Source of the DNA: a virus
IMG/VR virus record: IMGVR_UViG_3300008219_002937
Location: 1-44,957 of that record
Strand: one strand, 5' to 3'
Length of the DNA: 44,957 nucleotides
Positions 1-20,939 of the stretch are shown in pieces. The notes below the pieces were generated by a model. It searched no databases and had not been told where the DNA came from. It was given only the letters and a program-made list of their open reading frames with translations. The position numbers and the translations under genes are program-made. How positions within the stretch are numbered: the stretch's first letter is position 1; the number at the start of each line of letters is the position of its first letter.

Positions 1-1
1 A

Positions 2-310
2 AGGCTCTTGGGAATTGGAGGGTATCACCTAGTTACAGATATTAAGTCCACTCTCGGCCCAAACGGCTTCGAAACGAGAGTCAAAGCACTCCATCAAGCA
101 ATGCCATTTGATGGAGACGTAGAGCCAGCATCCGCTAGACAATCCGCGGCCCTAGACATCCTCTTGGACCGCGCCCACCCCGGCATCCAGTCCGGAGACG
201 GCAAATCATCCACTGTAGACGGTCACATCTTCGACCGTGAAACAGAAGGCCAATTCAGCTCAATCGAGAACCCAGACAATTTTACGAAGGGGTGGGATAA
301 TGATGAATAA
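2..310 (+). CDS. C-terminal end of a phage structural (tail/baseplate-like) protein, 5' partial
   Basis: The reading frame is open from the first bases of the window, so the true start lies upstream; a TTG at 8 is only an in-frame codon. The visible residues open with a GIGGYHLVT stretch followed by a FETRVKALH stretch. I associate this pattern with the C-terminal beta-rich end of long phage tail or baseplate proteins, where a 'GVGGYY.V' strand precedes 'GF.T...A'. The last 60 residues are acidic and look disordered. It is followed after 23 bases by another virion-like gene. The structural assignment is inferred from this local pattern only. Confidence 0.45.
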   Translation, partial: RLLGIGGYHLVTDIKSTLGPNGFETRVKALHQAMPFDGDVEPASARQSAALDILLDRAHPGIQSGDGKSSTVDGHIFDRETEGQFSSIENPDNFTKGWDNDE

Positions 311-333
311 TCTTTTAAGGACATAGTTATCGT

Positions 334-1524
334 ATGGCAATCAATCCCTTTTTATTAGATCAATATTTAACTCCTGGCGGTAAGAACGACGGCAGTTCTT
401 TAGCCAATTTTGAAAGACGCAAGTTTTACAAAGAGTTTCCCTATTTTGGTGATCTACCAAACCCCATGGATTCGTGGTATGACAAACTCTATTATGGGCG
501 TGTCGACCGTACGCAAAATGGTATCGTTATATCAGACCAAGCCATGGCCGACCGCTTAGTACAAATAAAATCCACCAAGAACGTTTTCGTTTTAGACTTT
601 GTTGCCGATGCTTTTGCGGACTTTCATCAGCATATGCGCGCAGCATCAACTTCCGGCTATATCAATAATGCCGGCACAAGGTTTAATATTCTAGAGCCAG
701 TCCGAGGGTGGAAAAACTATCAAACAGAGTTTTCCGACTCAAGACAGCATTTACGTTCAGCCGTACAGAGTTATTTCAGAAGAGAGAAAAGAGCGGATAG
801 GGCAGTCACAGGTTTCAAGGCGTTTTTAAACGAATTTATTAACTTCTTAGAACTCAGGCCCCTCATAGATCCAGTTACATTAAGTGGGTTTGTGGTTTCG
901 AACTCCTCGCACCCCATGATGTCTGGATTATCTATAGAGTTGACTTCCGATGATCACGGTGACGACACACCAAAAGTTACAAAGTACATGTTAGACCCCA
1001 ATTTCGACTATTATGTTCGCGCTGCTAGGAAATACGGCTTTTACGTACATCGCAATGCTCCATGGAAGTTGACAGCAGACGTATTTTCAGATAAAATGCT
1101 CTCATACCTAGATGTGTATGGGGCGAACGAGAGTAATTTCTTCTCTCATTACTATGATAGGTCATACACTAAAGATATACAACATATGAAAGAAGATTTA
1201 GTCTCAATTTACAATAGCTATGTCACTGCCTTCCCGCTGATAAGGACAGAGAAGCCTCCATTCGGCCCGGGGAATGCCAGAGTATGCCAGAATACAACAA
1301 TCGAGAACAAACTTAGAGAATCCATAACAATGAGCGCTGTGGATAGTATAGTCGGCGACGGCTATTGGCTCGATTTCTATTTTAGATTGCGGCTCCGAGA
1401 GAAAAACTTAGATTTTAACAATATTAACACAGAGATCACAAATGCTCTGCAGATTAACAAAGTACAGGGCTTGGAAATAGCAACAAAGTACGTTAACGAT
1501 CAAGTTAAGCCCTATTTGTATTAA
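334..1524 (+). CDS. Phage protein of unknown function, probably virion structural
   Basis: 396 residues, no recognisable enzyme motif, signal peptide or membrane segment. It is rich in Tyr, Phe and Asn, begins MAINPFLLDQYLTPGG and has a FVLDFVADAFADFHQHM segment near residue 90. The ATG at 334 follows an AAGGAC ribosome site 11 bases upstream. Its place directly after a structural gene end, and before a new promoter that opens the replication block, suggests it is the last gene of a structural operon. That role is inferred from position, not from homology. Confidence 0.55.
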   Translation: MAINPFLLDQYLTPGGKNDGSSLANFERRKFYKEFPYFGDLPNPMDSWYDKLYYGRVDRTQNGIVISDQAMADRLVQIKSTKNVFVLDFVADAFADFHQHMRAASTSGYINNAGTRFNILEPVRGWKNYQTEFSDSRQHLRSAVQSYFRREKRADRAVTGFKAFLNEFINFLELRPLIDPVTLSGFVVSNSSHPMMSGLSIELTSDDHGDDTPKVTKYMLDPNFDYYVRAARKYGFYVHRNAPWKLTADVFSDKMLSYLDVYGANESNFFSHYYDRSYTKDIQHMKEDLVSIYNSYVTAFPLIRTEKPPFGPGNARVCQNTTIENKLRESITMSAVDSIVGDGYWLDFYFRLRLREKNLDFNNINTEITNALQINKVQGLEIATKYVNDQVKPYLY

Positions 1525-1528
1525 AAGC

Positions 1529-1557
1529 TTGACATTCGTGCCGGCACGGTTTATTAT
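1529..1557 (+). promoter_or_regulatory. Sigma70-type promoter with palindrome in the spacer
   Basis: TTGACA (1529-1534), a 17-base spacer and TATTAT (1552-1557), 24 bases before the GTG start of the polymerase gene. The spacer holds a perfect 12-base palindrome, CGTGCCGGCACG (1537-1548), placed where a repressor or activator dimer could bind. It starts the replication block after the structural gene. Confidence 0.75.
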
Positions 1558-1580
1558 AAGGGTGAATCGAAAGGTCACGT

Positions 1581-2762
1581 GTGTTTTTTCAGCTTCTAGA
1601 CTATAAAGAGCAATGCTTCGGGGTGTACTCCGATGGGGTTATTTCACTAGACGCCATGCCGGAAGGTAAATCCGTTACTTGGGATTACTCGCCGGAACTA
1701 GCTGGCCAAGATATACAATATATGAAGCTATATTGCGGAAAGTCTCTGACTGAGATGTGTCCGGAGAAGATTAGAAACCAGTGGGACTCCGCAGTTCGCA
1801 AAATGAGGGCATTCGTCTCCTCTTTCTATGAGGCAAAGATTAATTTAGACGAAACTTGCTTTTATGACTTAATGCCAGAGCAGTTTTTACTTGAGTACTT
1901 TGATTTGAAAAATCAGATTACAGAGCACGTTTACAGGACATACGATAAGCCAAAAAACTATGATTTTCTGTCCTCCTTACAGGGAGTACTTGCGAGTGTC
2001 AAGAAACAAAAAGTTAAAATCAACGGAAAAGCTTTGCGTCCACACCTGGGGACCCTACGAGCCCGGAATTTTATAAAAACACTCTCTAAGACAGAACCAT
2101 GTTGCAAATACAATTTGTTTGGTACTGTCACTGGTCGCCTTTCGACGTTTCCTGGCAGCTTTCCGATATTGACCATGAATAAGGAATATCGAGCAGTTTT
2201 AGAGCCAACAAATGGATGTTATCTGGAGCTTGATTACAACGCTGCAGAATTGAGGACATTCTTGTCCTTAGCTGGCCATGATCAACCAGACAACGATATT
2301 CACGAATGGAACGTCCAGCAGCTGTATGATAATAAGGTCAGCCGTGAGGACGCAAAGCAGAAGATTTTTTCTTGGCTTTATTCGAATCACCTTGACATTA
2401 AAGCCGAGAAGGTTTATAATAAAACATCTGTAAAGGATAAGTATTGGAATGGAGAAGAGATAACAACGGTATTCGGTAGAACAATAGAGACTGACGAGCA
2501 TCGCGCGCTTAACTATATTATTCAAAGTACGACTAGTGATTTAGTATTACGGCAAATGATTAAGCTTCATGAGTTCTTGCAAGATAAGAAGAGTTTTATC
2601 GCGTTTTGTATTCACGACTCGGTTGTTATTGATTTGGATTCTGATGAAAAAGAGCATATTGAAGAATTGATCGATATATTTTCAGATACCCGACTTGGCA
2701 ACTTCAAAGCGAAGGCCAGCGTTGGATTGAATTTTGGAGACATGAGGGAACTTAACGTATGA
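1581..2762 (+). CDS. Short family A DNA polymerase without an exonuclease domain
   Basis: 393 residues. The palm and fingers of a Pol I-type polymerase are visible: TATGRLS-like motif 'GTVTGRLSTFPG' near 181, motif A 'LELDYNAAELR' with catalytic Asp218 and Glu223, an O-helix with the canonical R-x3-K-x3-F-x3-Y spacing (Arg255, Lys259, Phe263, Tyr267), and motif C 'CIHDSVV' with Asp346. In motif C the usual HDE is HDS. The N-terminal about 150 residues are too short to hold a 3'-5' exonuclease domain, and I see none of its acidic motifs. GTG start after an AAAGG site. The stop overlaps the next gene (ATGA). A separate full-length DnaE is encoded at 14430, so this enzyme may serve gap filling, primer removal or repair, or it may be part of a two-polymerase replisome. 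Confidence 0.9.
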   Translation: MFFQLLDYKEQCFGVYSDGVISLDAMPEGKSVTWDYSPELAGQDIQYMKLYCGKSLTEMCPEKIRNQWDSAVRKMRAFVSSFYEAKINLDETCFYDLMPEQFLLEYFDLKNQITEHVYRTYDKPKNYDFLSSLQGVLASVKKQKVKINGKALRPHLGTLRARNFIKTLSKTEPCCKYNLFGTVTGRLSTFPGSFPILTMNKEYRAVLEPTNGCYLELDYNAAELRTFLSLAGHDQPDNDIHEWNVQQLYDNKVSREDAKQKIFSWLYSNHLDIKAEKVYNKTSVKDKYWNGEEITTVFGRTIETDEHRALNYIIQSTTSDLVLRQMIKLHEFLQDKKSFIAFCIHDSVVIDLDSDEKEHIEELIDIFSDTRLGNFKAKASVGLNFGDMRELNV

Positions 2763-3070
2763 AGAAAAAATTATACAGCAAACTAGTGAGAGACCGAATA
2801 CCAGAGATTATTGAAGAAGATGGTAAGATGGTAGGGTTTCACGTTGCTACTGAGGAAGAGTATCAACAAGCTCTGCTCGACAAGTTGGTTGAAGAGGTAC
2901 AAGAGTTTATTGCAGATCCCTGTCTTTCTGAAATGGCAGATGTGTGTGAAGTTCTGGAGTTTATAAAGAAAGAATTCAAACTTCACAGTGCCGGCGCCGA
3001 ACAGATTGCAAAACGAGTCTCCAGGGGATCATTCAAGAACGGATATATTTTGGATTGGGTTGAGGAATAA
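2759..3070 (+). CDS. MazG-like (all-alpha) nucleotide pyrophosphohydrolase
   Basis: 103 residues with the N-terminal 'YSKLVRDRIPEIIE' signature of the phosphoribosyl-ATP pyrophosphohydrolase-like/MazG-like family, followed by the metal-binding pattern EE..E (KLVEEVQEFI) and E..D (LSEMADVCEVLEF). Family members cleave nucleoside triphosphates to monophosphate and pyrophosphate, often as pool-cleaning enzymes. The start overlaps the polymerase stop by 4 bases and its stop overlaps the next ATG by 1, so the three genes are translated as a unit. The substrate cannot be read from sequence; the neighbouring polymerase suggests a dNTP. Confidence 0.82.
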   Translation: MKKKLYSKLVRDRIPEIIEEDGKMVGFHVATEEEYQQALLDKLVEEVQEFIADPCLSEMADVCEVLEFIKKEFKLHSAGAEQIAKRVSRGSFKNGYILDWVEE

Positions 3071-3903
3071 TGAATATTGTTGGCCTAGGCGCTGCTGGGT
3101 GTAATATTGCGGACACGTTCGCAAAATATCCGCAGTACACCAGCTACAAAATTGATGTTGGCCTCAAGGGTTACAAAAAGAATGGCATTTACGCCATACC
3201 CAGGAAGGCAACTCATGAAGAATATGAAGAAAATTGTCCAAATTTTAAAAATTTCTTCAAAAACATCACAGGTAGGGTCATTTTGGCCACCTGCGGCGCC
3301 GGTACGGTCACTGGATGCGTCCTAAGGCTCTTGGAGCAACTTCCTGACGTTCCGGTCTCTATCCTGTACGTCAAGCCGGACATTAGCCTTCTAGGCGAAA
3401 TAAAAGCCACTCAAGAGAAGATTGTGTATAATATTTTGCAAGAATACGCAAGATCCGGACTAGTTGACAGAATGTACGTTATTTCCAACTTGGAAGTCGA
3501 AAAGGTTCTGGTTGATATACCGATTAGTGGATATTACGATACGCTGAATGAAGCAATCGTATCAACTTTTCATATGTTGAACGTTTTTTCGAATTCAGAA
3601 CCCGTTGTCGGAGCATTCACGGAACCGGTTGATTCTGCTAGGGTTTCTACTATTGGAATTGTTGATTTAGAAAAAGAAGAAGAAAAGTTGTTTTTTGACT
3701 TGACAACACCCCGTGATCGGGTGTATTATTATGGTATAAACAGTGAGTCATTAAAAACAGACGGTAAGCTCTTTAAGAAGATAACGAATTTTGTTAAGAG
3801 CAGGAATGAAGAGAATGTGAAAGTCTCGTACGGTGTGTTTGAGACGAACTATGAACAAAACTTAGCTTATTGTGTAAATCACAGTTCGCTAATACAAACT
3901 TAG
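3070..3903 (+). CDS. Divergent FtsZ/tubulin-superfamily GTPase
   Basis: 277 residues. The N-terminus 'MNIVGLGAAGCNIADTF' matches the first nucleotide-binding loop of FtsZ/tubulin proteins. 'ATCGAGTVTGC' (73-83) sits where the tubulin signature G-box GGGTG(S/T)G lies. 'PVSILYVKPD' followed by a long helix, then 'VISNLEVEKVL' and 'GYYDTLNEAIVSTFHML', match the FtsZ order of strand, KPF segment, N-x-L loop and the D..N helix that binds guanine. It is shorter than PhuZ (about 315 residues) or FtsZ and has no obvious C-terminal tail peptide. By analogy with phage tubulins such as PhuZ and TubZ it could form filaments that position DNA or capsids. The G-box has Val and Ala replacing Gly, so polymerisation and GTPase activity are open. 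Confidence 0.75.
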   Translation: MNIVGLGAAGCNIADTFAKYPQYTSYKIDVGLKGYKKNGIYAIPRKATHEEYEENCPNFKNFFKNITGRVILATCGAGTVTGCVLRLLEQLPDVPVSILYVKPDISLLGEIKATQEKIVYNILQEYARSGLVDRMYVISNLEVEKVLVDIPISGYYDTLNEAIVSTFHMLNVFSNSEPVVGAFTEPVDSARVSTIGIVDLEKEEEKLFFDLTTPRDRVYYYGINSESLKTDGKLFKKITNFVKSRNEENVKVSYGVFETNYEQNLAYCVNHSSLIQT

Positions 3904-3927
3904 ATGTTCGGGATATTGGCCGAACAT
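3904..3927 (+). promoter_or_regulatory. Perfect inverted repeat in the 5' leader of the SSB gene
   Basis: ATGTTCGG (3904-3911) and CCGAACAT (3920-3927) form an 8-bp stem with an 8-base loop, starting right after the upstream stop codon and ending 27 bases before the gp32-like start. There is no T-run, so it is a poor terminator. T4 gene 32 is known to repress its own translation through a structured leader; this hairpin is a candidate for the same job. Confidence 0.45.
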
Positions 3928-3954
3928 ACTCTAACCCAATGAAAGGAAATCAAA

Positions 3955-4728
3955 ATGGGTATTAATGTAGAAAAGATGCGAGCACGACTCGCGCAACTTA
4001 AGGGTGAAGGTGGTGGAAAGGATACGTTCTGGCGTCCACAAGATGGTGAACAGACGATTCGTATTATTCCTACCGCAGATGGAGATCCCTTTAAGGATTA
4101 TTGGTTCCACTACAATGTGGGCAAGAACGCAGGGTTTTTATGCCCTAAGCGAAATTACGGAGAAAGCTGCGCCGTTTGCGAATTCGCCTCTCGTCTTTGG
4201 ACTGAGGGCGTTAACAACAACGACGACGACAGCAAGAAGATGGCCAAGAGCCTCTTTACGCGCCAGCGCTTCTTCTCTCCCGTCATGGTACGAGGAGAAG
4301 AGAGCCGCGGCGTCCGAGTTTGGGGATATGGTAAGATGGCCTATGAGAATCTGCTATCTTTGGTCCTCAACCCAGAATACGGTGATATCACCGATGCTGA
4401 AACAGGCACTGACCTAGTTTTGGGCTATGGGAAGCCCCCAGGCGCTTCCTTCCCCCAGACGAAGCTCACGCCTCGCCGACGTTCCTCCACTCTATGTGAG
4501 GACATGACTCCGGAGAGTTGCAAGGAAATCCTTGATTCGATTCCGGACATGACTGACCTTTTCGAGCGTAAGTCATCGACTGAAGTTGAGAGTCTTTTGG
4601 ACACTTATCTTTCCGATGATGAATCGGCCGAAACTCGCTCCAGCGAGACTACGAAGTACGCCTCTACGTCTACGAGTGAGGCTCCCTCCTCAGTGGATGC
4701 TGCATTCGCAGAACTTGGCATCGGGTAA
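3955..4728 (+). CDS. gp32-like single-stranded DNA-binding protein
   Basis: 257 residues, similar in size to T4 gp32 (about 301). The region 'TFWRPQDGEQTIRIIP' followed by 'PFKDYWFHYNVG' is the gp32-type start of the OB fold. A zinc-type cluster follows: 'FLCPKRNYGESCAVCEF' near 62-79. The C-terminal about 60 residues are acidic and Ser/Thr-rich, ending in a hydrophobic tip, as in SSB tails that bind partner proteins. It should coat single-stranded DNA at the fork and during recombination with the UvsX-like protein downstream. The ATG follows GAAAGGAAATC. A leader hairpin upstream may control its translation. Confidence 0.85.
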   Translation: MGINVEKMRARLAQLKGEGGGKDTFWRPQDGEQTIRIIPTADGDPFKDYWFHYNVGKNAGFLCPKRNYGESCAVCEFASRLWTEGVNNNDDDSKKMAKSLFTRQRFFSPVMVRGEESRGVRVWGYGKMAYENLLSLVLNPEYGDITDAETGTDLVLGYGKPPGASFPQTKLTPRRRSSTLCEDMTPESCKEILDSIPDMTDLFERKSSTEVESLLDTYLSDDESAETRSSETTKYASTSTSEAPSSVDAAFAELGIG

Positions 4729-4730
4729 AA

Positions 4731-4770
4731 TATCCCTCCGCAGGGGGGCCCGGGGTTACAGGGGTCCCAC
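4731..4770 (+). other. GC-rich hairpin in the gap after the SSB gene
   Basis: In the 72-base gap, GGGGCCC (4745-4751) can pair with GGGTCCC (4762-4768) with one G-U pair and a 10-base loop. No T-run follows, so it may be a transcript-stabilising or pausing structure rather than a terminator. The stretch is also unusually rich in runs of G, but has only three separated runs of four. Confidence 0.35.
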
Positions 4771-4800
4771 ATTATCACAAGCAAGATAAGGAATTTTTAG

Positions 4801-5310
4801 ATGAATAACATTACAGACACTTTGAGAGAACTAAGCGTCGCTGATGATGCACTTATCACCCTTAGCTATACCGAGGGTGCCGATGTTTGGCATATTGACG
4901 ACAACCACGTGGAAGAGACAATTGGTTACACCAAGACTGTTTCTCTCCTTGCTGGGCTCCTTGCCTCTGACGTAACCGTTTCGCGCGCTTACGGCACTCC
5001 TGACGATATTCTTGAAGACATGCGGGACGAGGGACTTCTCGATAACTATGACAACGAAGGTTCTTTCAAGGACTACTTGACTGGGCAGCTCACCGATACG
5101 ATCTATGAAGGCGAGTATCCTTTGGATTACTCAACTCAGCATTACGACCACAAACGCGGCTGGTGCAACATCTCGACCAGGGTCAAAATTAAGGCAGCCG
5201 ATCTTTACCGAATCGATGAAAACGAGTCTTCACCTAACTCGGCCGATGCGGTTGTCGAAGGTTTTACTGTTGAGGTGCAGACACCGGCCGGTACGCTGAC
5301 GCTTAGCTAG
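4801..5310 (+). CDS. Acidic phage protein of unknown function
   Basis: 169 residues, strongly acidic, with no motif I recognise. It begins MNNITDTLRELSVADDAL and has a Tyr/Asp-rich middle. The ATG at 4801 follows AAGGAATTTTTAG. Its last base is the first base of the GTG start of the next gene, so the two are translationally coupled. Its position between SSB and RecA suggests an accessory role in replication or recombination, by context only. Confidence 0.6.
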   Translation: MNNITDTLRELSVADDALITLSYTEGADVWHIDDNHVEETIGYTKTVSLLAGLLASDVTVSRAYGTPDDILEDMRDEGLLDNYDNEGSFKDYLTGQLTDTIYEGEYPLDYSTQHYDHKRGWCNISTRVKIKAADLYRIDENESSPNSADAVVEGFTVEVQTPAGTLTLS

Positions 5311-5528
5311 TGAAAATTCTAGACTTACATGGAGAATATCACCGCTCTGTACAGGGCATTGTAGAGGAGTTTGTGTTTTCGAACGAGACCCCGCTGAAGA
5401 TCATAACGGGAAAATCTCAAAGAATGAGAGAACTTGTCACTCAGGTGACGAACAGGAGTGGCCTTTACTGCCATTTCGAAAATCTTACAAATAGCGGTTG
5501 TTTGATTATAACAAAATATAAAATATAG
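5310..5528 (+). CDS. Smr-like domain mini-protein
   Basis: 72 residues. 'LDLHGEYHRSVQGIVEEF' matches the LDLHG motif and first helix of the Smr (small MutS-related) domain, and 'LKIITGKSQRMRELV' occupies the place of the family's (T/H)G(K/R)G...LR motif. The second motif lacks the usual GKGxG glycine pair (GKSQ here), so nuclease activity is uncertain. GTG start overlapping the upstream stop. It precedes the RecA/UvsX gene by 10 bases, consistent with a DNA recombination or repair unit. Smr domains nick DNA or RNA in other systems; the role here is not established. Confidence 0.6.
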   Translation: MKILDLHGEYHRSVQGIVEEFVFSNETPLKIITGKSQRMRELVTQVTNRSGLYCHFENLTNSGCLIITKYKI

Positions 5529-5538
5529 GGAGAATAAA

Positions 5539-6675
5539 ATGGCTCGACGCAAATCAACGATAGGAAAACTTCAAATTTCAGAAATGAGAAGCCTTATCAA
5601 CAAGAAAGCTGGCATGAATGTCGCTTTCGATCTTAAGAATGAAAACCCAACCGAAGTGAAAGCCTGGATTCCAACTGGATCTCGTTGGCTAGACTCGATT
5701 ATTTGCCGCGGCCAACTAGCCGGCATCCCGGTTGGAAAAATCACGGAAATCGCCGGCCTAGAGTCGACAGGGAAATCGTTCATGGCGGCACAAGTCGCCG
5801 CGAATGCTCAGAAGATGGGAATTGATGTTATCTACTTTGATTCTGAATCTGCTATCGATCCGACTTTCTTGGAGCGCGCTGGCTGCGATTTAGAAACGCT
5901 CTTGTATGTGCAGGCAGCTTCGGTGGAATTTGTACTAGAGACAATCGAAGAGCTTTTGGGTTCAAACGCCAACAGAATGCTGTTTATTTGGGATTCTCTG
6001 GCACTCACCCCTTCTATCTCAGATATCGAGGGCGATTTTAACCCCAACTCCTCTATGGCAGTCAAGCCTCGCATTCTCTCTAAGGGTATGGCAAAACTAA
6101 CAGTGCCCATTGCTAATAGTCAGTCGACGTTCTTGGTTTTAAACCAGCTAAAGACGAACATCCCGTCTGGGCCAAATGCGCACATTGTTGCTATGACCAC
6201 TCCATACATTACACCCGGAGGAAAGGCCATGCACTATGCTTATTCACTTCGCGTGTGGCTCACTGGACGAAAGGCCAAAGCTTCCTTTATCATGGATGAC
6301 AAAGGGTTCAGAATCGGATCAGAGGTAAAAGCAAAACTTGAGAAATCTCGATTTGGCACTCAGGGTCGCAATTGCGCATTCAAGATTCTTTGGGGAGAGG
6401 GTATCGGCGTGCAGGATGAAGAAAGTTGGCTGGAGGCCATCAAAGGTTCCGAGAACCTTCTTCAGCGCGGCGCATGGTATGCACTTCAATACGAAAATGG
6501 AGATCAGGAGAAGTTCATGAGTTCTCAGTGGGTCGAGAAGTTGGCTAATGAAAAGTTTAAGCAGCGTGTCTTTGAAATTATGGACGAAGAGATCGTTATG
6601 AAGTTTGATAAACGTCAGGGAACTGCCAGCGAATTTTATGATACTGAAGAAGAATCATCAGAACAACAAAAATAA
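5539..6675 (+). CDS. RecA/UvsX-type recombinase
   Basis: 378 residues. Walker A is 'AGLESTGKS' (72-80), the Walker B strand is 'RMLFIWDSLAL', and 'TFLVLNQLKTNI' followed by 'TPGGKAMHYAYSLRVWL' are the RecA/UvsX L2-adjacent motifs. It forms ATP-dependent filaments on single-stranded DNA for strand exchange and recombination-dependent replication, working with the SSB at 3955. The C-terminus is acidic (EEESSEQQK). The ATG follows TAGGGAGAATAAA. Transcription probably stops at the hairpin at 6694-6730. Confidence 0.93.
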   Translation: MARRKSTIGKLQISEMRSLINKKAGMNVAFDLKNENPTEVKAWIPTGSRWLDSIICRGQLAGIPVGKITEIAGLESTGKSFMAAQVAANAQKMGIDVIYFDSESAIDPTFLERAGCDLETLLYVQAASVEFVLETIEELLGSNANRMLFIWDSLALTPSISDIEGDFNPNSSMAVKPRILSKGMAKLTVPIANSQSTFLVLNQLKTNIPSGPNAHIVAMTTPYITPGGKAMHYAYSLRVWLTGRKAKASFIMDDKGFRIGSEVKAKLEKSRFGTQGRNCAFKILWGEGIGVQDEESWLEAIKGSENLLQRGAWYALQYENGDQEKFMSSQWVEKLANEKFKQRVFEIMDEEIVMKFDKRQGTASEFYDTEEESSEQQK

Positions 6676-6683
6676 AATAACTC

Positions 6684-6712
6684 TTGACTCTGGAGGCACT
6701 GTGGGATATACT
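6684..6712 (+). promoter_or_regulatory. Sigma70-type promoter embedded in a terminator
   Basis: TTGACT (6684-6689), 17-base spacer, TATACT (6707-6712). The -10 box lies in the loop of the intrinsic terminator at 6694-6730, so a start near 6719 would lack the 5' arm. It drives the deaminase gene at 6748 and onward. Confidence 0.8.
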
Positions 6713-6730
6713 ATTCTCACAGTGCCTTTT
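6694..6730 (+). terminator. Intrinsic terminator after recA, with a promoter -10 box in its loop
   Basis: AGGCACTGTG (6694-6703) pairs perfectly with CACAGTGCCT (6718-6727), followed by a short T-run (6727-6730). The 14-base loop holds a TATACT -10 box. Confidence 0.75.
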
Positions 6731-6747
6731 AGCAGATAGGAATTATA

Positions 6748-7131
6748 GTGAAAAATAAGCGCTATATCGGACTAGCCAAGCGAGTCGCAGAAGAGTCAGA
6801 TTATGGAAAGTTTCGTCACGGAGCAGTCTTGGTTAAGGGTAGCTCCATTCGTAACGTTTCCTGCAACAAGCAACGACACTGCAGCTTTGGTACACGTTTC
6901 CGCGCACCAGACTGTGGAGATGCGACTCTGCATGCAGAATTAGGCGCCATTTTGGGAGTCGACAGGGGAGTAACCCGCGGCTCAACAGTTTACGTAGCAA
7001 GAATTAACAAAGAGGGAGAAGCTAAGATTAGCAAACCGTGCCCTATGTGTCAAAACGCGATGAAGCATGTTGGCGTCCGCCGCGTTGTGTACACAGATAA
7101 AGACGGAGATATTGTGAGTATGAGACTATGA
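6748..7131 (+). CDS. Cytidine/deoxycytidylate deaminase-family enzyme
   Basis: 127 residues. The zinc site is visible: 'LHAELGAI' with His62 and catalytic Glu64, and 'KPCPMCQNAM' with Cys98 and Cys101 (H-A-E ... P-C-x2-C). Family members deaminate cytosine nucleotides; in phages the usual substrate is dCMP, giving dUMP for thymidylate synthesis. No thymidylate synthase is in this window. The start is GTG after AGGAATTATA, directly downstream of the embedded promoter. The stop overlaps the next gene (ATGA). Confidence 0.83.
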   Translation: MKNKRYIGLAKRVAEESDYGKFRHGAVLVKGSSIRNVSCNKQRHCSFGTRFRAPDCGDATLHAELGAILGVDRGVTRGSTVYVARINKEGEAKISKPCPMCQNAMKHVGVRRVVYTDKDGDIVSMRL

Positions 7132-7592
7132 ATATATTTGTTGTTGACGAAGACCCGGTAGTTGCTGCACAGCAATTGTGTGACAAGCATGTGGTAAAGA
7201 TGATTCTTGAGACTGCACAGATGTTGTGTACGGTAGCAGCCAATCACGGCCACAAAACACCTTATCGTAAGACACACGCAAAGCATCCCTGCACTTTATG
7301 GGCCGGCACTTCTGCTGGAAATTGGACGTGGCTTCTCCGCCACGGCTTAGCTATGTGTGCTGAATATACGCGCCGCTATGGCCGCGTACACAAAAGTGAG
7401 GAGGTCATCATGTGGTGTAGCAGACTTACGATGAAATTCCTGGGAGCCAATCTGACGCCGTTCGCCCAAGCAATGCCTCCCCAGTATCACAATGACTGTG
7501 CAGTCACTGCATACCGTGCCTATTACCACGGAGAAAAAGCAAAGTTTGCTACATGGAAAACAGAGGAGCCAAAATGGTGGAGAGTAAGATGA
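7128..7592 (+). CDS. Conserved phage protein of the 'MNIFVVD...DKHVVKM' family, function unknown
   Basis: 154 residues, rich in His, Trp and Cys. The N-terminus 'MNIFVVDEDPVVAAQQLCD' followed by 'KHVVKMILETAQML' is a pattern I recognise from many phage genomes, usually unannotated and sometimes linked to DNA-repair glycosylases; I cannot confirm that link. Conserved-looking blocks 'HPCTLWAG', 'WLLRHGLAMCAEYTRRYG' and 'KWWRVR' follow. It overlaps the deaminase start-stop by 4 bases and the exonuclease by 4 bases, placing it inside the nucleotide and replication operon. Confidence 0.65.
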   Translation: MNIFVVDEDPVVAAQQLCDKHVVKMILETAQMLCTVAANHGHKTPYRKTHAKHPCTLWAGTSAGNWTWLLRHGLAMCAEYTRRYGRVHKSEEVIMWCSRLTMKFLGANLTPFAQAMPPQYHNDCAVTAYRAYYHGEKAKFATWKTEEPKWWRVR

Positions 7593-8554
7593 AAAGAGTG
7601 ATGATTGTCGATAGCCTAAATCAGTTTATTAGGTCCTACATTGTTGATCCAAGTTTATCGACAAACGGTCAACCAATAGGCGGAACAAAGGGCTTTTTAA
7701 AGATTTTACAGAAACTCTGCAGGGATATTAACCCAGATGCTGTTGTTATCTGTTGGGACGGCAGAGGTGGCTCTAGGAAGCGCCGAAGTCTAGTTAAGGA
7801 ATATAAGTCCGGACGCAAGGCCATTCGTCTAAATCGCGAAACCGACATGACCGAAGACGAAGAACTTCAAAATAAGATTTGGCAGCAAAGCCGGCTGATT
7901 GAGTACTTGAATGAACTCCCGGTGATTCAGTTTATGTTCGATGAGGTTGAGGCCGATGATGTAATCGGATATGTCAGTAAGATGCCGCAATTCGACGGAT
8001 GGCAAAAGGTAATCGTTTCCAGCGACAAAGACTTCATTCAGTTATGTGATGGTGAAACTGTGCTTTTTAGGCCGGTACAGAAGGAAGTCCTGAATAAGAA
8101 CAATATCATTGAGAAGTTTGGAATTCACCCAAACAATTTTGCTTTGGCCCGGGCCCTTGTCGGAGACAAATCCGATAATTTAGAAGGTGTACGCGGCGTC
8201 GGCCTTCCTACGGTAAAGAAAAGATTTCCCTTTCTTTCTGAAGAAAAATCATATACAATACAAGAGTTGATAGAATTTTGTGATAATGTTGACTCAAAGC
8301 TTAAGACTTACAAATCAATTTTAGAAAATGAAGATTTGGTGGCATTGAATTATAAGCTTATGCAACTGTATTCTCCAATCTTGTCAGTTCAGTCAAAAAG
8401 CAAGGTCGACTTCACTATCGATAATTTTGAATTTGAGTTCAACAAGACAGAGATGATCAAAATGATGCATGAAGATGGTTTTGGGTCGTACAATTGGGAC
8501 GAGTTGTTCGCTAAAATGAAGAAAATATCGATTGATGGGCTAAGAGGGGAATAA
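7589..8554 (+). CDS. 5'-3' exonuclease / RNase H (FEN family)
   Basis: 321 residues from the chosen ATG at 7589. This start overlaps the upstream stop as ATGA and has a GGAG site 7 bases away; the frame is open further up to 7553. The acidic active-site residues of the FEN/5' nuclease fold are seen in order: 'MIVDSLNQF', 'VICWDGRGG', 'DEVEADDVIGY', 'VSSDKDFIQL' and 'VGDKSDNLEGVRGVG', the last being the helix-hairpin-helix region. Homologues such as T4 RNase H and the Pol I 5' nuclease remove RNA primers and flaps. Together with the exonuclease-less PolA at 1581 it could rebuild the two activities that Pol I carries in one chain. Confidence 0.88.
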   Translation: MKRVMIVDSLNQFIRSYIVDPSLSTNGQPIGGTKGFLKILQKLCRDINPDAVVICWDGRGGSRKRRSLVKEYKSGRKAIRLNRETDMTEDEELQNKIWQQSRLIEYLNELPVIQFMFDEVEADDVIGYVSKMPQFDGWQKVIVSSDKDFIQLCDGETVLFRPVQKEVLNKNNIIEKFGIHPNNFALARALVGDKSDNLEGVRGVGLPTVKKRFPFLSEEKSYTIQELIEFCDNVDSKLKTYKSILENEDLVALNYKLMQLYSPILSVQSKSKVDFTIDNFEFEFNKTEMIKMMHEDGFGSYNWDELFAKMKKISIDGLRGE

Positions 8555-9937
8555 ATGGATTTTAACGAAAAATCAGATTTTTCAAAGTATGGCAAAAGCT
8601 TTCAAGAGCAGCTGTGTATGCTTGTCCTTGATGATCGACCTTTCGCCGATCAGGTTGAAGAAGTTCTAGACATTAATTTTCTAGAACTTCGTTATCTACG
8701 TGTATTCGTAGAGAAGGTTTTTTCGTATCGTAAGAAGTATGACGTACATCCTTCCCGTAGGATTATGACAACTATTCTGCGCACAGATCTGGAAGAAGAG
8801 AACGAACTAACCCAGCAACAGACTCGTGAATTCTTCGCGCGCGGCCACACTTTTAGTACTGAGGATGCTGGGTACATCAAGGAGACTTCTTTAGATTTCT
8901 GCAAAAAGCAGTGTCTGAAATCCGCTATGGTGAAGTCTATCGGACTCCTCCAGAAATCATCTTTCGATGAGATTTCGAAAGTCATTAATGATTCACTAAA
9001 GTTGGGCGCGAGCCCGGACACCGGCCATGATTGGAAAAGGGACTTTGAAGCCAGATACAAGCCCAAATTCAGAAACCCAGTAACGACCGGCTGGGACTTA
9101 TTGGATGATCTTTGCCACGGCGGCTTGGGTCAAAAAGAGCTTGGAGTGGTTATTGCGCCTACCGGTGCCGGAAAATCCATGGCCCTTGTACATTTAGGAA
9201 CAAAAGCCTTAAGAGCTGGCAAAACTGTGGTACACTATACTCTGGAGCTGCAGGACACGGTGATCGGAACGAGATACGATAGCTGCCTCACCGGGGTACC
9301 GCTATCAAACCTTCTCTCCTTCAAAGAGAAAATATATGAAGAGGTTAAAGACATTCCCGGCTCCTTGATTATTAAGGAATATCCAACGAAATCTGCTAGC
9401 ACGCAAACGTTGCGAGGGCATCTTGAAAAGTTAAGATTGCGCAACGTTGAGGTTGATATGATCATTGTTGATTATGCCGATCTTCTTCGCCCCGTTTCAG
9501 CGCAGAAAGAGCGCAGAAATGAGCTTGAATCTATCTACGAGGAACTTCGTGGATTGGCTCAGGAGTTCGTGTGTCCAATTTGGACCGCTAGCCAAACAAA
9601 CCGCTCAGGCCTCAATGCGGAAGTGATTACTATGGAATCGATTTCCGAGGCATTCAATAAGTGCTTCGTCGCAGATTTCATTTTTTCTATCTCTAGGACG
9701 GTCGAAGATAAGCAGGCAAATACCGGCAGAATCTTTATCGCAAAGAATAGAAATGGTCCAGATGGGCTGGTCTTCCCCCTCTTCATGGATACGTCGAGTG
9801 TGGCGATCAAAGTTCTTGAGCCAACAGCTGAGATGCTGACAGAACCAGTCCAAAGAACGGACAAGGAACAAAGAGAACTTTTGGCTCAAAAGTATAAAAA
9901 ATTAGTAAAGGGTAAAAAAAGTGAAGTACACACATAA
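8555..9937 (+). CDS. Replicative DNA helicase, DnaB/gp41 type
   Basis: 460 residues. Walker A is 'APTGAGKS' (201-208), the Walker B strand is 'DMIIVDYADLL' (301-311), and 'WTASQTNRSG' is the DnaB H4-like motif; the arginine-finger region follows. The N-terminal about 170 residues are the helical interaction domain. It unwinds DNA as a hexamer ahead of the polymerase. The ATG directly follows the exonuclease stop. The 3' end overlaps the RNR gene by 17 bases. No separate primase or helicase loader is recognisable in the window. Confidence 0.9.
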   Translation: MDFNEKSDFSKYGKSFQEQLCMLVLDDRPFADQVEEVLDINFLELRYLRVFVEKVFSYRKKYDVHPSRRIMTTILRTDLEEENELTQQQTREFFARGHTFSTEDAGYIKETSLDFCKKQCLKSAMVKSIGLLQKSSFDEISKVINDSLKLGASPDTGHDWKRDFEARYKPKFRNPVTTGWDLLDDLCHGGLGQKELGVVIAPTGAGKSMALVHLGTKALRAGKTVVHYTLELQDTVIGTRYDSCLTGVPLSNLLSFKEKIYEEVKDIPGSLIIKEYPTKSASTQTLRGHLEKLRLRNVEVDMIIVDYADLLRPVSAQKERRNELESIYEELRGLAQEFVCPIWTASQTNRSGLNAEVITMESISEAFNKCFVADFIFSISRTVEDKQANTGRIFIAKNRNGPDGLVFPLFMDTSSVAIKVLEPTAEMLTEPVQRTDKEQRELLAQKYKKLVKGKKSEVHT

Positions 9938-12353
9938 TGAAGCTTATGAAGCAACTTTAAAGTATTTTAGTGGCGATGAATTAGCAGCTAACGTTTTTAT
10001 TACAAAATACTGCTTGAGAAACAAGGACGGTGAGTTTTTAGAAAAAACACCAGATGATATGCATGAGAGAATGGCCTCTGAGTTCGCGCGGATTGAGGAA
10101 AAATTTCATAAGGATGGCTCTTCTTCCTCGATGTCAAAAAAGAAGATTCTCTCTTACTTAAAAAACTTTAAATATATTGTCCCTCAAGGATCGCCTATGA
10201 TGGGAATAGGAAACAATCATGTTAATGTATCTCTTTCTAACTGTGTCGTTATCGAGCCTCCTGCAGACAGTGTTTCGTCCATTATGGACGCTGGTAAGCA
10301 TCTTGCTAACTTGTTCAAGCGTCGCTGTGGCGTTGGTATTGATCTTTCTCATTTGCGTCCCGAGGGTGCTCCCGTTAACAACTCTGCTCGCACTACTACT
10401 GGGGCTTGGAGTTTTGCTGATTTCTATTCATATGTTTGCCGTATGATCGGCCAAAATGGCCGACGCGGAGCATTGATGATCACAATGGATATCCGTCATC
10501 CCGATATCGAGAGTTTTATCACCATGAAAAGGGATTTGACGAAAGTCACCGGCGCGAATGTCTCTGTTAAAATAAGTGATGACTTCATGAGGGCCGTAGA
10601 GAACAAAGAAACATTTACACTGCAGTTCCCAATCGACAGTGAAGAACCAACGGCAACAAAGGAGGTTCTAGCGGAAGATGTATGGAATATGATCATCGAG
10701 TCTGCAACAGCCACTGCGGAACCCGGGATCTTGATGTGGGACAATATTGTAAACAATTTACCGGCGCACTCTTATTCCGAGAGTGGCTTTAAAACAGTTT
10801 GCACCAATCCGTGCGGGGAAATACCCCTCTCTGCTTATGATAGTTGTCGGCTGATATCTATCAACTTAAAGAATATGGTAAAGAATCCGTTTAGTGACAA
10901 ATCAAAGTTCGATTTTAAGAAGTTGAGGGAGGTAGTCACCGTTGGCATGCGCCTCTCTGACGATCTGGTGGAATTGGAGCTTGAGAAACTAGAGAGTATC
11001 CACCAGTGCACCGACACAGAGGATGAAAAGGAGATGTGGTCTAAGCTGCTTAAAGCCGCCCGCGACGGCCGCCGAACTGGTATGGGAACCCATGGCTTAG
11101 CTGACGCCATTGCTCGTCTGGGCCTGAAATACGATTCCGCTGCAGCAATTGCCGTTATCGAGAAGATCTACGAAACACTACGCAACTCAGCGTACTCGGA
11201 AAGTATATCTCTGGCCCGTGATCGCGGCTCCTTCCCGGTGTTCGACTGGGAGCTAGAAAAAGAAAATAGATTTATCAGTCGACTACCAGAAGAGCTGCAA
11301 AACTCTTTATCGACCCATGGGCGTCGAAACATATCAATTTTGACAAACGCCCCAACCGGCTCTGTGTCTATATTATCCCAGACTAGTTCTGGGCTAGAAC
11401 CCGTCTTCCGTAATTGGTATATTCGTCGTCGTAAACTTTCTCACGATGAGCAGGACGTTGTGCCAGATTTCGTAGATGAGATGGACGATAAGTGGGCTGA
11501 ATACAGAATATTCCATCATAACGTGCAGGAGTATCTAGAGCTTTTCGGAACAGATAAGATACCAGAGTTCTTTGTAGAATCAGACCAGATTGATGGTATG
11601 CAGAGGATCGCAATTCAAGAAGCAATTCAGAAGAGTATCGACCATAGTATTAGTTCTACAATCAACCTTCCAAAAGAAACAAATCCAGAAACTGTAGGAG
11701 CGTTGTATTTAGAGGGTTGGCGCCGCGGCCTCAAAGGAATAACTGTATATGTAGAAGGATCCCGCACCGGAGTGCTGATATCAAACTCGGAAAATAAGAA
11801 AGAGGAGTTCCCACAGCATACAGCGCCAAAACGACCTTTTGAGCTTCCGTGTGATATTCACCATACTACGATTCAGGGAGAAAAGTGGGTTATAATGGTA
11901 GGCTTGATGGACGGGAGACCGTATGAGGTTATGGGAGGTCTCTCTAATCTTATCGAAATTCCAAGATCCAAAGCAGAGGGGGTTTTGATGAAACACCCCA
12001 GGAAAACCATGAATTCCGTATATGATTTGCAGATCGGCACTAATGGAGAGACTGTAATTATTAAAGACTTAGTGAAAGCATTTGATAACCCTAATCACTC
12101 GGCATTTACCAGAGTAATTTCTCTCGGCTTGCGTCATGGTGCCAATATTCAATATGTGGTTGAGCAGCTGCAGAAGGATCGAGACAGTGACATGTTTAGT
12201 TTTGCTAGGTGTGTTGCAAGGGTCCTAAAAAGTTATATCCCAGATGGCCAAGCCGCCACCGAAAAAACTTGTCCCGAGTGTAGTACAGAGGGGTTAGTAT
12301 ACGTGGAAGGTTGCGTGACTTGTAGGAACTGCGGATTCTCTAAGTGCGGATAA
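9921..12353 (+). CDS. nrdJ: Class II (adenosylcobalamin-dependent) ribonucleotide reductase
   Basis: 810 residues. 'TNPCGEIPLSAYDSCRLISINL' begins at residue 295 with the active-site Cys and Glu of NPCGE (296-300); a partner Cys is likely Cys108 in 'SLSNCVVI'. 'APTGSVSILSQTSSGLEPVF' is the conserved phosphate-binding block. The C-terminus ends in a four-Cys zinc-ribbon ('CPEC' ... 'CRNCGFSKCG'), typical of B12-dependent NrdJ enzymes. It converts ribonucleotides to deoxyribonucleotides without a NrdB radical subunit, and none is encoded here. GTG start inside the helicase gene. Host cobalamin is implied. Confidence 0.9.
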   Translation: MKYTHNEAYEATLKYFSGDELAANVFITKYCLRNKDGEFLEKTPDDMHERMASEFARIEEKFHKDGSSSSMSKKKILSYLKNFKYIVPQGSPMMGIGNNHVNVSLSNCVVIEPPADSVSSIMDAGKHLANLFKRRCGVGIDLSHLRPEGAPVNNSARTTTGAWSFADFYSYVCRMIGQNGRRGALMITMDIRHPDIESFITMKRDLTKVTGANVSVKISDDFMRAVENKETFTLQFPIDSEEPTATKEVLAEDVWNMIIESATATAEPGILMWDNIVNNLPAHSYSESGFKTVCTNPCGEIPLSAYDSCRLISINLKNMVKNPFSDKSKFDFKKLREVVTVGMRLSDDLVELELEKLESIHQCTDTEDEKEMWSKLLKAARDGRRTGMGTHGLADAIARLGLKYDSAAAIAVIEKIYETLRNSAYSESISLARDRGSFPVFDWELEKENRFISRLPEELQNSLSTHGRRNISILTNAPTGSVSILSQTSSGLEPVFRNWYIRRRKLSHDEQDVVPDFVDEMDDKWAEYRIFHHNVQEYLELFGTDKIPEFFVESDQIDGMQRIAIQEAIQKSIDHSISSTINLPKETNPETVGALYLEGWRRGLKGITVYVEGSRTGVLISNSENKKEEFPQHTAPKRPFELPCDIHHTTIQGEKWVIMVGLMDGRPYEVMGGLSNLIEIPRSKAEGVLMKHPRKTMNSVYDLQIGTNGETVIIKDLVKAFDNPNHSAFTRVISLGLRHGANIQYVVEQLQKDRDSDMFSFARCVARVLKSYIPDGQAATEKTCPECSTEGLVYVEGCVTCRNCGFSKCG

Positions 12354-12367
12354 TAGAAACAAACCAC

Positions 12368-12396
12368 TTGACTTCTTTGCCCTTACGAGTTATACT
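12368..12396 (+). promoter_or_regulatory. Sigma70-type promoter embedded in a terminator
   Basis: TTGACT (12368-12373), 17-base spacer, TATACT (12391-12396). The -10 box fills most of the loop of the hairpin at 12378-12409. Same boxes and same geometry as the element at 6684. It drives the GroES-like gene. Confidence 0.8.
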
Positions 12397-12409
12397 GTAG
12401 GGGCATTTT
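12378..12409 (+). terminator. Intrinsic terminator after the RNR gene, with a -10 box in its loop
   Basis: TGCCCTTAC (12378-12386) pairs with GTAGGGGCA (12397-12405) with one G-U pair, followed by TTTT (12406-12409). The 10-base loop contains TATACT. Confidence 0.72.
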
Positions 12410-12426
12410 AGTTTGAGGAGAAAAAA

Positions 12427-12711
12427 ATGAACTTTGCACCAGTGAATAAGAACCTGTTACTTAAGGTTGAAGAAGAAGAGGAAACACTTGAAGCGCCAAT
12501 TGGTGGCATTTTATTGCCAACTGATTATAGGCCGGCCCACAAGCCATATACTTTTGCAACTTTAGTTGCATGCGCAGATGATTCTTCTTTTGCGATGGAC
12601 GTTGGAAAGACTTTTGTTGTAGAGTCTCAAATGATCCGCGAGATTGAATACGATGGAGAGTTATTTCATACAATAACTGAAAGTCATGTCATCGGGTTCC
12701 TTCGGGAGTAA
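12427..12711 (+). CDS. GroES-like co-chaperonin (gp31-type)
   Basis: 94 residues, the size of GroES (about 97). The start 'FAPVNKNLLLKVEEEEE' matches the GroES first strand (P...R..VK), 'GGILLP' is the conserved segment next to the mobile loop, and the end 'DGELFHTITESHVIGFL' matches the GroES C-terminal strand pattern. The mobile loop is short and differs from bacterial GroES. It would cap a GroEL ring, either the host's or the phage GroEL at 26676, for folding phage proteins. ATG after TTTGAGGAGAAAAAA. It starts its own transcription unit from the embedded promoter. Its stop overlaps the next gene's ATG by 1 base. Confidence 0.72.
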   Translation: MNFAPVNKNLLLKVEEEEETLEAPIGGILLPTDYRPAHKPYTFATLVACADDSSFAMDVGKTFVVESQMIREIEYDGELFHTITESHVIGFLRE

Positions 12712-13541
12712 TGAGATCGCACACATACAAGCTTGAAGAACTAGTTATAGGCTATGGCCTAAATGCAATCTTGTATGCGTATCTAAACAATTCAACAATC
12801 TTAATTAATGGCTCTCAGAAGCCGTTCAGATTCGATCTATGGGAGGGCAAGCAGAAGGCAGATATTTGGTCTGAAAAGCTGTTTGCTCTCTCTTTGATTG
12901 GAAAATGCCCACTAGCCGATAAGGTCGATTCCATAAGAGTCGAAGATGGCCAAGTTAGCGTCATGACGAAAAATCTACGTCAAATAAAGATCGGATTTGA
13001 GAAACTTAGAATATTTGATGGGGATTCTGTTGAGGGTCTAGATTTCACCGAGAAGATAGAACAATACAGGGTTTTTGATTGGTTTAATGTACGTTCTGGC
13101 ATGCGCCACGAGTTCGACAAAATAGAGACTATATCAAATTTTGTTAAATGCATACATTTCTACCCATCAGATCGGCTGGATGGCAATCACCTAGACAAGA
13201 AAGATCTTGTTACTGAATCCTTTATCGATATATCAAATATTGACGATTTTGACGTTTCATCCACGGTCGCTCGCCTTAAAACGCTAGCGACAATGAAAGA
13301 GAATGGCATAAAAGGCACCAGAAACGGCAGGTCCATGGAAGATCCAACCAAGTACAAACATTACGCTCTCAAAATAGAGTATGATCGACGCGAGAAATAT
13401 AAGAATAAAAGATTATTTGTGACAGGAGACTTGCCAAAGGGAGTTAAATTTGATATAACTAATGAGAGCGTTTTGTTGTCCCAGTTAGCCGACAAGACAC
13501 ATACTTCAAAAGTTGAGAGGCAACTAATACTTGGAAAGTAA
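12711..13541 (+). CDS. Phage protein of unknown function with a Rossmann-like N-terminus
   Basis: 276 residues. The segment 'LVIGYGLNAILYAYLNNSTI' near residue 11 resembles the beta-alpha-beta start of dinucleotide-binding proteins (V-I-G-x-G-L...A...). No other FAD or NAD motif is visible, so the resemblance may be structural only. The remainder is mixed and soluble, with no membrane segment. It is coupled to the GroES-like gene upstream and overlaps the nucleotidyltransferase-like gene downstream by 11 bases, so the pair may act together. Confidence 0.5.
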   Translation: MRSHTYKLEELVIGYGLNAILYAYLNNSTILINGSQKPFRFDLWEGKQKADIWSEKLFALSLIGKCPLADKVDSIRVEDGQVSVMTKNLRQIKIGFEKLRIFDGDSVEGLDFTEKIEQYRVFDWFNVRSGMRHEFDKIETISNFVKCIHFYPSDRLDGNHLDKKDLVTESFIDISNIDDFDVSSTVARLKTLATMKENGIKGTRNGRSMEDPTKYKHYALKIEYDRREKYKNKRLFVTGDLPKGVKFDITNESVLLSQLADKTHTSKVERQLILGK

Positions 13542-17873: not shown

Positions 17874-17887
17874 AAAGGAAAAGTAAA

Positions 17888-18043
17888 ATGGCTAGAAGAA
17901 TAAAGACAACGACAGGAAGAAGTGATAAGGCAAATAAGAAGAAAAGCGCGCAGGGTTGCGGCAAGTTCACTAAGTGGCGACGCCCCGGCCCCAACGGCGG
18001 AAACAAGAAATACCGCAAGAAGTATAGGGGACAAGGACGATGA
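17888..18043 (+). CDS. Small very basic protein, 51 residues, function unknown
   Basis: ATG at 17888 after an AAAGGAAAAGTAAA ribosome site, ending in TGA at 18041-18043 that overlaps the next ATG (ATGA). The product is very rich in Lys and Arg with a 'QGCGKFTKWRRPGPNGG' segment and a basic tail. The charge suggests nucleic-acid binding. The good ribosome site, coupling to neighbours on both sides and dense packing support a real gene. Confidence 0.65.
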   Translation: MARRIKTTTGRSDKANKKKSAQGCGKFTKWRRPGPNGGNKKYRKKYRGQGR

Positions 18044-18234
18044 TCGCTGACATAATTGTCGACCTACAATATGGTGATTGCGGGAAGGGCAAGGTAACTC
18101 ACCACCTTCTACGTACTTTGAAATATACTCACTGTATTCGCTATAACGGCGGGTGCAATGCTGGCCACACTATCTTCCATGAAGGCAAGAAGTTTGTGAC
18201 ACATCAAAAAACTATGGTTTATGCTGTGTTGTAA
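18040..18234 (+). pseudogene. Truncated N-terminal copy of adenylosuccinate synthetase
   Basis: 64 residues that align without gaps to the first 60 residues of the intact PurA at 18811, with about 40 identical positions. It keeps 'GDCGKGKVTH' (intact copy: GDEGKGKVTH) and 'NAGHTI', then diverges at 'HQKTMVYAVL' and stops. All later PurA motifs are missing, so it cannot be an active synthetase alone. The copies are too different for a fresh tandem duplication. An HNH endonuclease gene follows 28 bases later. The simplest reading is an original purA cut short by insertion of the endonuclease, with function restored by a second, diverged purA. Confidence 0.8.
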
Positions 18235-18262
18235 TACTATATATTATAGGAGGTATTGAAAG

Positions 18263-18808: not shown

Positions 18809-18810
18809 TA

Positions 18811-19809: not shown

Positions 19810-19810
19810 A

Positions 19811-20413: not shown

Positions 20414-20421
20414 AGGTTATT

Positions 20422-20937: not shown

Positions 20938-20939
20938 GT

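Follow-up and report, generated by a model that had tools for sequence, protein, structure and literature searches.

The virus record IMGVR_UViG_3300008219_002937 of IMG/VR was analyzed over its whole length of 44,957 bases, which we call the window. Its main open reading frames (ORFs) lie on the + strand. They encode a UvsX/RecA recombinase, a dCMP deaminase, an exonuclease, a DnaB-like helicase, ribonucleotide reductase (RNR), and a GroES-like protein, together with a DNA polymerase of the DnaE type (phrog_405), an endonuclease VII relative, two head-maturation/ClpP-like proteases, and GroEL. A megablast search of positions 1 to 25000 against 50,697 phage records gave no near match, and an Rfam search returned a tRNA as its sole match. 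Named relatives of the recombinase and the polymerase were all below 60% identity, the best among the matches listed reaching 28 to 32%; for the polymerase, the best named relatives among the matches listed were Bacillus and other phages, at 28 to 31% identity. A 71.6-kb contig, G001, is the same virus (99.8% identity over 5817-50778) and was used as the extended copy of the window, so that counts given below for relatives take in the window's own sites. In the remaining reference contigs, ends of ~1 kb (G007 and G009), ~2 kb (G019 and G021), or ~3 kb (G008 and G025) were left out, and G011 to G013 were covered at their loci only.

Three short gaps between genes each hold a promoter-like sequence overlaid on a hairpin, all on the + strand. 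Element 1 (6684-6730) lies between the gene for the UvsX/RecA-like recombinase (phrog_97, 5539-6675) and that for the dCMP deaminase (phrog_174, 6748-7131), which is followed by phrog_624 (7128-7592) and the exonuclease gene (phrog_107, 7553-8554). TTGACT (6684-6689) and TATACT (6707-6712) are separated by 17 nt, and a 14-bp stem pairs 6693-6706 with 6715-6728, leaving the entire -10 box in the loop at 6707-6714. TTTT follows at 6727-6730 (four T in eight positions), and readthrough RNA from 6692 to 6734 folds with a minimum free energy of -24.8 kcal/mol. Element 2 (12368-12409) stands between the RNR large subunit gene (phrog_84, 9921-12353) and a GroES-like gene (phrog_3188, 12427-12711; a weak match, E 1.7e-4). 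It has TTGACT at 12368-12373 and, after 17 nt, TATACT at 12391-12396, with a stem of 10 pairs and an 8-nt loop (12378-12405) and TTTT at 12406-12409. Here the -10 box lies in the loop except for its last T, which opens the 3' arm, and in the RNAfold structure (-15.3 kcal/mol) additional inner pairs involve part of the -10 box.

Element 3 (23529-23592) separates two unassigned genes, one whose product has an acidic C terminus (22884-23519) and one encoding a 128-amino-acid protein (23605-23991). A perfect TTGACA (23529-23534), 17-nt spacer, and TATAAT (23552-23557) are followed directly by a terminator-like hairpin of 11 pairs (23558-23585) and by nine T at 23584-23592. The expected start site, 23563 to 23565, falls within the 5' arm, and the readthrough fold has -16.7 kcal/mol. 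Arrangements like those of elements 1 and 2, in which the stem flanks the -10 box and holds it in the loop, are termed class A, and those like element 3, in which the stem starts just after the -10 box, class B. The stems of the three elements have no sequence in common. In mononucleotide shuffles of elements 1, 2, and 3, 0, 0, and 2 of 500 folded as stably. The boxes are of the sigma70 type by sequence match, and the elements are predicted to be strong host-type sigma70 promoters overlaid on a hairpin, with the boxes outside the stem. A preliminary description of this DNA had located these overlays between three unrelated pairs of genes, and its coordinates and folds agree with ours apart from the one T at element 2. 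It had also noted that readthrough RNA carries the whole hairpin while RNA begun at the promoter lacks all or part of the 5' arm; by the geometry found here, such RNA would be without the entire arm at sites 1 and 2 and without its lower half at site 3. Leaders begun 6 to 8 nt past the -10 box folded with -0.8, 0.0, and -4.2 to -6.4 kcal/mol over the same stretch (elements 1, 2, and 3) and still with about -7.6, -3.3, and -12 kcal/mol over 60 nt.

The same description held that three copies argued against chance and proposed a scan of shuffled sequence as one means of refutation. A simple terminator scan gave no gene-strand excess by itself: 18 hairpins were found in 1-20000 versus 17.4 ± 4.1 in shuffles, 33 in 20001-40000 versus 18.6 ± 4.7, of which 24 were on the - strand, antisense to the genes, and 3 in 39900-44957 versus 4.7 expected. 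The case for the elements thus rests on geometry and comparison. The excess of - strand hairpins in 20001-40000 is possibly a by-product of coding composition.

Promoter geometry did show an excess over shuffles. The sample comprised 503 distinct sites of the form TTGACN-16..18-TA(T)NNT, taken from 23 larger contigs together with the loci up to L133. Sites within 60 to 70 nt of a sequence end were excluded, as were duplicates, judged over the stretch that runs from the -35 box to 25 nt beyond the first base of the -10 box; rows holding N were excluded both from this count and from the score test of control phages described below. Class A stems scoring at least 26 were found at 21 of the 503 promoters, compared with 1.0 in mononucleotide shuffles of the spacer and downstream DNA, although this overstates the number of events because homologous copies are not independent. 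At a score of at least 30 there were 15 versus 0.15 expected, and at 22 or more there were 28 versus 6.0, the 28 including 3 from G001 and several doubtful ones that are A+T-rich or within genes. When 326 promoters from the 23 contigs were examined for stems of at least 8 bp, 36 had one nearby. The loop centers formed two clusters, 12 at -4 to +6 from the -10 box, as at sites 1 and 2, and 8 at +15 to +18, as at site 3; the other 16 were scattered. With a more permissive criterion for stems, there were 14 class A cases versus 4.6 expected and just 8 class B cases versus 4.4, so that support for class B comes mainly from its homologues.

Some members of the group lack class A: among the ten contigs longer than 50 kb, stems scoring at least 22 were absent from G002, G003, G016, G017, and G019. 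Nor is the geometry special to this group. The 265 promoters of eight named control phages also showed an excess, with 2 class A stems at a score of at least 26 (0.8 expected), 13 at 22 or more (3.5 expected), and 4 class B stems at 26 or more (0.15 expected); coverage in these controls was 139 of 148 kb for phage K, 111 of 122 for T5, 119 of 133 for SPO1, 200 of 245 for KVP40, and 80 of 86 for FelixO1. The identity of the two box pairs at sites 1 and 2, which had been put forward as a further argument against chance, was set aside as carrying little weight, because the -10 box of relatives that share this geometry can be TATCAT, TATTAT, TATATT, or TATACT.

The stems that follow recA vary in sequence while the geometry stays. 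The arms are GGCACTGTG/CACAGTGCC in the window, GGCACCGTG/CATGGTGCC in L053, whose RecA is 94% identical, GCGGCTATGG/CCATAGCCGC in L093, and GCTCCTATGGG/CTTATAGGAGC in L095. Across 15 aligned class A homologues, 95.2% of 210 stem cells were paired, compared with 79.2% when the letters of the 3' arm were shuffled and 42 to 51% when the arms were slid. Changes on both sides of a pair were seen in 8 of the 14 pairs, with 33 such cells versus 9.4 in shuffles. Departures from Watson-Crick pairing in these rows were G.U in 41 cells and A.C in 1, and the ten rows chosen for following recA had 31 and 0. When G.T and A.C were scored alike in 24 class A-like elements, the counts were 43 and 7, several of the A.C cells coming from doubtful elements. 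Six class B homologues, whose pairs were listed element by element rather than by column because MAFFT misaligned the arms, also still pair (G.U 7, A.C 0) and have T-rich tails. Class B stems precede a single protein family, whose members are 27 to 55% identical among themselves or to the window protein, and homologues of the 128-amino-acid protein (32 to 55% identical to it) stand after a class B element in five relatives. The predominance of G.U over A.C indicates that the hairpin acts in gene-strand RNA and not as a DNA dyad or as RNA of the opposite strand. Comparison of these sequences shows the hairpin to be kept by compensatory change, as expected if it acts in gene-strand RNA; an abundance of G in the 5' arms and of T in the 3' arms could, however, produce the excess of G.T over A.C in other ways.

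Comparable composite elements have been published for T4-like phages. PeSLs (promoter early stem-loops) were reportedly described by Arbiol in 2010 and by Comeau, Arbiol, and Krisch in 2014, and their stem-loop is said to have been measured as an effective terminator. The same PeSL motif is repeated within one genome, and T4-like phages have a polymerase of a family other than the DnaE type. Among 94 promoters of RB49, which we take to be the phage in which PeSL cassettes were described, class A was found 11 times (1.2 expected), class B 6 times (1.2 expected), and a type with the stem-loop in the spacer 12 times (0.7 expected); the corresponding counts among 17 promoters of G001 were 2, 1, and 1. 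The RB49 geometries, with the -10 box in the loop, the stem just past the -10 box, or the stem-loop in the spacer, are those of the window, and in both a sigma70-type promoter is fused with a stem-loop, between genes, several times per genome. The window differs in that its stems are unlike each other, whereas many RB49 copies share GGGGATC/GATCCCC, and in that a DnaE-type polymerase sets its phage apart from the T4-like group. Promoter activity and termination at its elements are predicted from sequence.

Other phages carry related overlays. KVP40, Staphylococcus phage K, and S-PM2 also place a promoter box and a terminator-like hairpin in one short stretch, mostly with the -35 box in the loop or an arm (AAAGGGTTGAC-N4-GTCAGCCCTTT in KVP40, AAACTCCCTATTGACAAAGGGAGTTT in phage K), so that the hairpin lies entirely before the start site. 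Overlays on the -35 box numbered 7 in KVP40 (0.0 expected), 10 in phage K (0.1), and 8 in S-PM2 (1.3). KVP40 and phage K have some class A cases too, 4 in KVP40 (0.3 expected) and, when a T-run was required, several clear cases in phage K, both of class A and with the -35 box in the loop; the phage K overlays include those at 101120, 121927, 129226, and 136385. FelixO1 had one class A (0.1 expected) and two class B (0.3), and the same classification found no class A in T4 or T5. Excerpts of PMC4503421 describe PeSLs as composite promoter-terminator motifs of T4-like phages with a role in gene shuffling and note that PeSLs are sparse in the part of S-PM2 considered there. The excerpted text of PMC1524935, PMC12282133, and PMC10134795 treats promoters and terminators and does not mention overlays, PMC2993671 does not mention PeSLs, and no paper in the literature collection used was found by a phrase search for a promoter in a terminator. 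In Kayvirus 515A1, termination and restart are also adjacent, with p98 immediately after t97 in an RNA-seq map (excerpted in PMC7698491); adjacency is described there, whereas in the window the signals are overlaid. The architecture is therefore not new. What is new is its occurrence in another phage group and the fresh evidence for its RNA nature: composite promoter-stem-loop cassettes, published for T4-like phages, are here described in an uncultured group whose DNA polymerase is of another type, and comparative evidence is added both for selection on the hairpin as gene-strand RNA and for its being a near-constant partner of the promoter at one site.

We consider it probable that the elements are PeSL-like composite cassettes in which one element ends the upstream message and restarts transcription. 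A polymerase arriving from the upstream gene would copy both arms, and the RNA would fold into the hairpin; where a U-run follows, readthrough transcription would end a few bases beyond or close to the new start site. RNA initiated at the embedded promoter, starting inside or beyond the 5' arm, could not complete the hairpin and would continue. One gap of 45 to 65 bp would thus divide two units and restart transcription. Promoter activity, termination, escape of the new transcript, and insulation are what we infer from these sequences; if termination and escape were confirmed, the elements would be compact insulate-and-restart parts of 45 to 65 bp, and restart by a polymerase that ends atop a promoter would become testable.

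How firmly termination can be expected depends on the copy. Measured against the model of an intrinsic (Rho-independent) terminator, the T-run has nine T at site 3 and four at each of the other two sites. In a count whose starting point takes in T paired in the outer stem, the 15 class A homologues have 2 to 6 T in eight positions, 11 of them 2 to 4. The earlier statement that readthrough RNA should stop is perhaps too strong as a rule: the run is long at site 3, fills four of eight positions at site 1, and has counterparts in the T-rich tails of the six class B homologues, but 4 of the 15 class A homologues have just 2 or 3 T in eight. Copies with weak U-runs would perhaps cause only pausing or 3'-end formation rather than termination.

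A possible alternative, though one we regard as unlikely, is that the hairpin acts in readthrough RNA mainly to form or protect a 3' end, as an exonuclease barrier or processing site, or to mask a ribosome site, the two genes being expressed from separate messages. Stems of 14 to 15 bp are retained in much of the family despite a poor T-run (TTCATACG), and such copies may be poor polymerase stops that instead serve 3'-end formation or shielding of the upstream message. Many RB49 copies likewise have no T-run. A class A-like variant at 29852-29905 on the + strand (coordinates transferred from G001) has its stem, 29863-29875/29893-29905, around the -10 box and no T-run, and its 3' arm terminates in GGAGG, so that readthrough RNA could mask the ribosome site; the sequence suggests an alternative way of silencing readthrough RNA. 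Against this reading, a T-run or T-rich tail is present at sites 1 to 3 and in all six class B copies, on the side expected of a terminator.

The genes around the elements change. Of 80 recA-type loci examined for 80 nt past the gene, 16 had a TTGAC promoter, 62 were scored without one, and 2 were too short, so that the element is dispensable; L072 carries the element yet was scored as having no promoter because its stop was placed within the -35 box. The hairpin was present with 15 of the 16 promoters found after recA, a count that includes the window's own virus (L052) and leaves the near-duplicates L066/067/070, L093/098/108, and L095/102 unmerged. All 18 elements examined for position lie between ORFs, one (L006) overlapping the stop of the upstream frame by 4 nt, and the next start codon is 56 to 76 nt from the beginning of the -35 box. 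Eleven of the 18 follow recA, 5 before a dCMP deaminase gene and 6 before an exonuclease gene (phrog_107 in the one tested), and five others follow genes other than recA. At the RNR locus, a TTGAC promoter within 90 nt of the match end was found in 3 of 25 cases. One of these is the window's own virus (L002), and in the other two, the distant RNR relatives L024 and L025, the -10 box is centered in another palindrome with no T-run (GATGTTATATTAACATC; AGTTGCTATTATGGCAACT); among these loci, site 2 as such was therefore found in the window's own virus only. Searches of viral_contigs with the GroES-like gene and ORF 23605 found only the near-identical contig; relatives of site 3 came from the promoter census.

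A pattern scan for one sequence form, the GCTCC element, yielded 39 contigs, which partly overlap those already collected; the pattern contains both arms by design and says nothing about pairing. The gene 3' of this near-identical element encodes dCMP deaminase in 14 contigs, exonuclease in 13, phrog_624 in 8, and another family in 2, with no ORF called in 2. The frame 5' of it is RecA in 9, others in 29, and none called in 1. Deaminase, phrog_624, and exonuclease are successive genes 3' of site 1, which suggests that the element stands at the front of this unit even as individual genes appear and disappear; under the cassette reading, the element would remain at the unit head as its flanking genes change. 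PeSLs sit where genes are exchanged. The near-identical element is followed here by three or more gene families and preceded by RecA or several others. It could accordingly be kept first of all as a short shared sequence for gene shuffling, as reported for PeSLs in the excerpted text of PMC4503421, with regulation secondary. This is improbable: the three copies of the window have no common stem sequence, selection on base pairing requires a structural role, and the gene changes could equally be simple deletions at the head of an operon.

Dyads over the -10 box are common among operators, and a dimeric regulator bound there could repress or activate the promoter. Besides the position of the dyads, one G003 promoter with the palindromic spacer CAAATA-N6-TATTTG speaks for such a role. 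A DNA operator is very improbable, and we rejected it, because stem sequences differ between sites 1 to 3 of one genome and because paired positions change in a compensated way with G.T at 41 cells and A.C at 1, while a DNA dyad should tolerate both equally. Least credible of all is pure chance, by which two signals crowded into gaps of 72, 73, and 85 nt overlap without mutual function: some overlap is expected in gaps so short, terminator-like matches in 1-20000 are at shuffled expectation, and T4 and T5 have no class A case, but shuffles of the same spacers gave 1.0 against the 21 observed, the stems covary, and the hairpin accompanies the promoter in 15 of 16 cases, so it too was rejected. 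Compactness may be the reason that the overlap evolved. The anatomy, the excess over chance, the compensatory evolution, the G.U bias, and the changing neighbors are established by computation, and the elements are a real, selected, and recurring feature for which chance does not account.

The composite-cassette reading can be carried one step further. After intrinsic termination, RNA polymerase often remains on the DNA and reinitiates at nearby promoters, according to excerpts of PMC6978322, PMC7957599, and PMC6978380. This is a property of the polymerase known from single-molecule work and not a sequence element, but the window geometry would favor it, and direct hand-over to the embedded promoter is conceivable. 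We offer as speculation, and hold to be rather doubtful, that unrelated lytic phages have repeatedly reached the same promoter-on-hairpin reset, at which a released polymerase may restart without leaving the DNA. If this were true, transcription from upstream would supply the embedded promoter with polymerase instead of shutting it down.

Further overlays in the window are candidates. A possible spacer-type element at 1529-1557 (+ strand, intergenic) has TTGACA-17-TATTAT, and its spacer contains CGTGCC/GGCACG, a short dyad rich in G+C; this candidate is weak, as RNAfold of the gap favors another fold. A second candidate of this type, at 3700-3729 (+ strand), has TTGACA-18-TATTAT with the stem-loop ACACCC..GGGTGT in the spacer and is located within ORF 3070-3903. 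At 44752-44789 (+ strand), a candidate class C element with TTGACA-17-TAATAT has its -35 box in the loop of a AAAACCCAG/CTGAGTTTT hairpin (44752-44777) and precedes tRNA-Lys at 44814-44889.

Several other promoter-like sequences were observed. At 30369-30414, a terminator-like hairpin, GGGCAACTTCGGTTGCC, and TTTTT continue into a TTTTCA-16-TATAAT match whose -35 box lies within the T-run, and an ORF of 1090 amino acids follows at 30438. A perfect TTGACA-16-TATAAT lies at 14246-14273 within ORF 13531-14433, ~160 nt 5' of the DNA polymerase gene, and by eye a promoter-like sequence in coding DNA of G024 (L150) resembles this region. In L043, L035, L021, and L023, several promoters have ATG ~6 nt past the -10 box (TATGCTagtagcATG, TATACTagcaccATG), so messages in these relatives may be leaderless. 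Many promoters on the minus strand of G003 (L031 to L033) have similar A+T-rich spacers that end in ATATTTG before TATAGT; together with the one perfect palindrome noted above, this spacer form is a candidate for a shared operator or a conserved promoter form.

Finally, the heptamer CTATTTA occurs shortly 5' of genes, in the window at 22843-22883, 28248-28275, and 35835-35869, and is strongly strand-biased in the group. Its counts on the coding and reverse strands were 30 and 1 in G002, 23 and 0 in G014, 19 and 0 in G018, 14 and 0 in G020, 32 and 5 in G015, 19 and 4 in G016, and 5 and 1 in G001. By eye, it also stands within a few bases past the recA stop in about a dozen recA relatives. From its position and strand bias, CTATTTA may be a phage late-promoter box.
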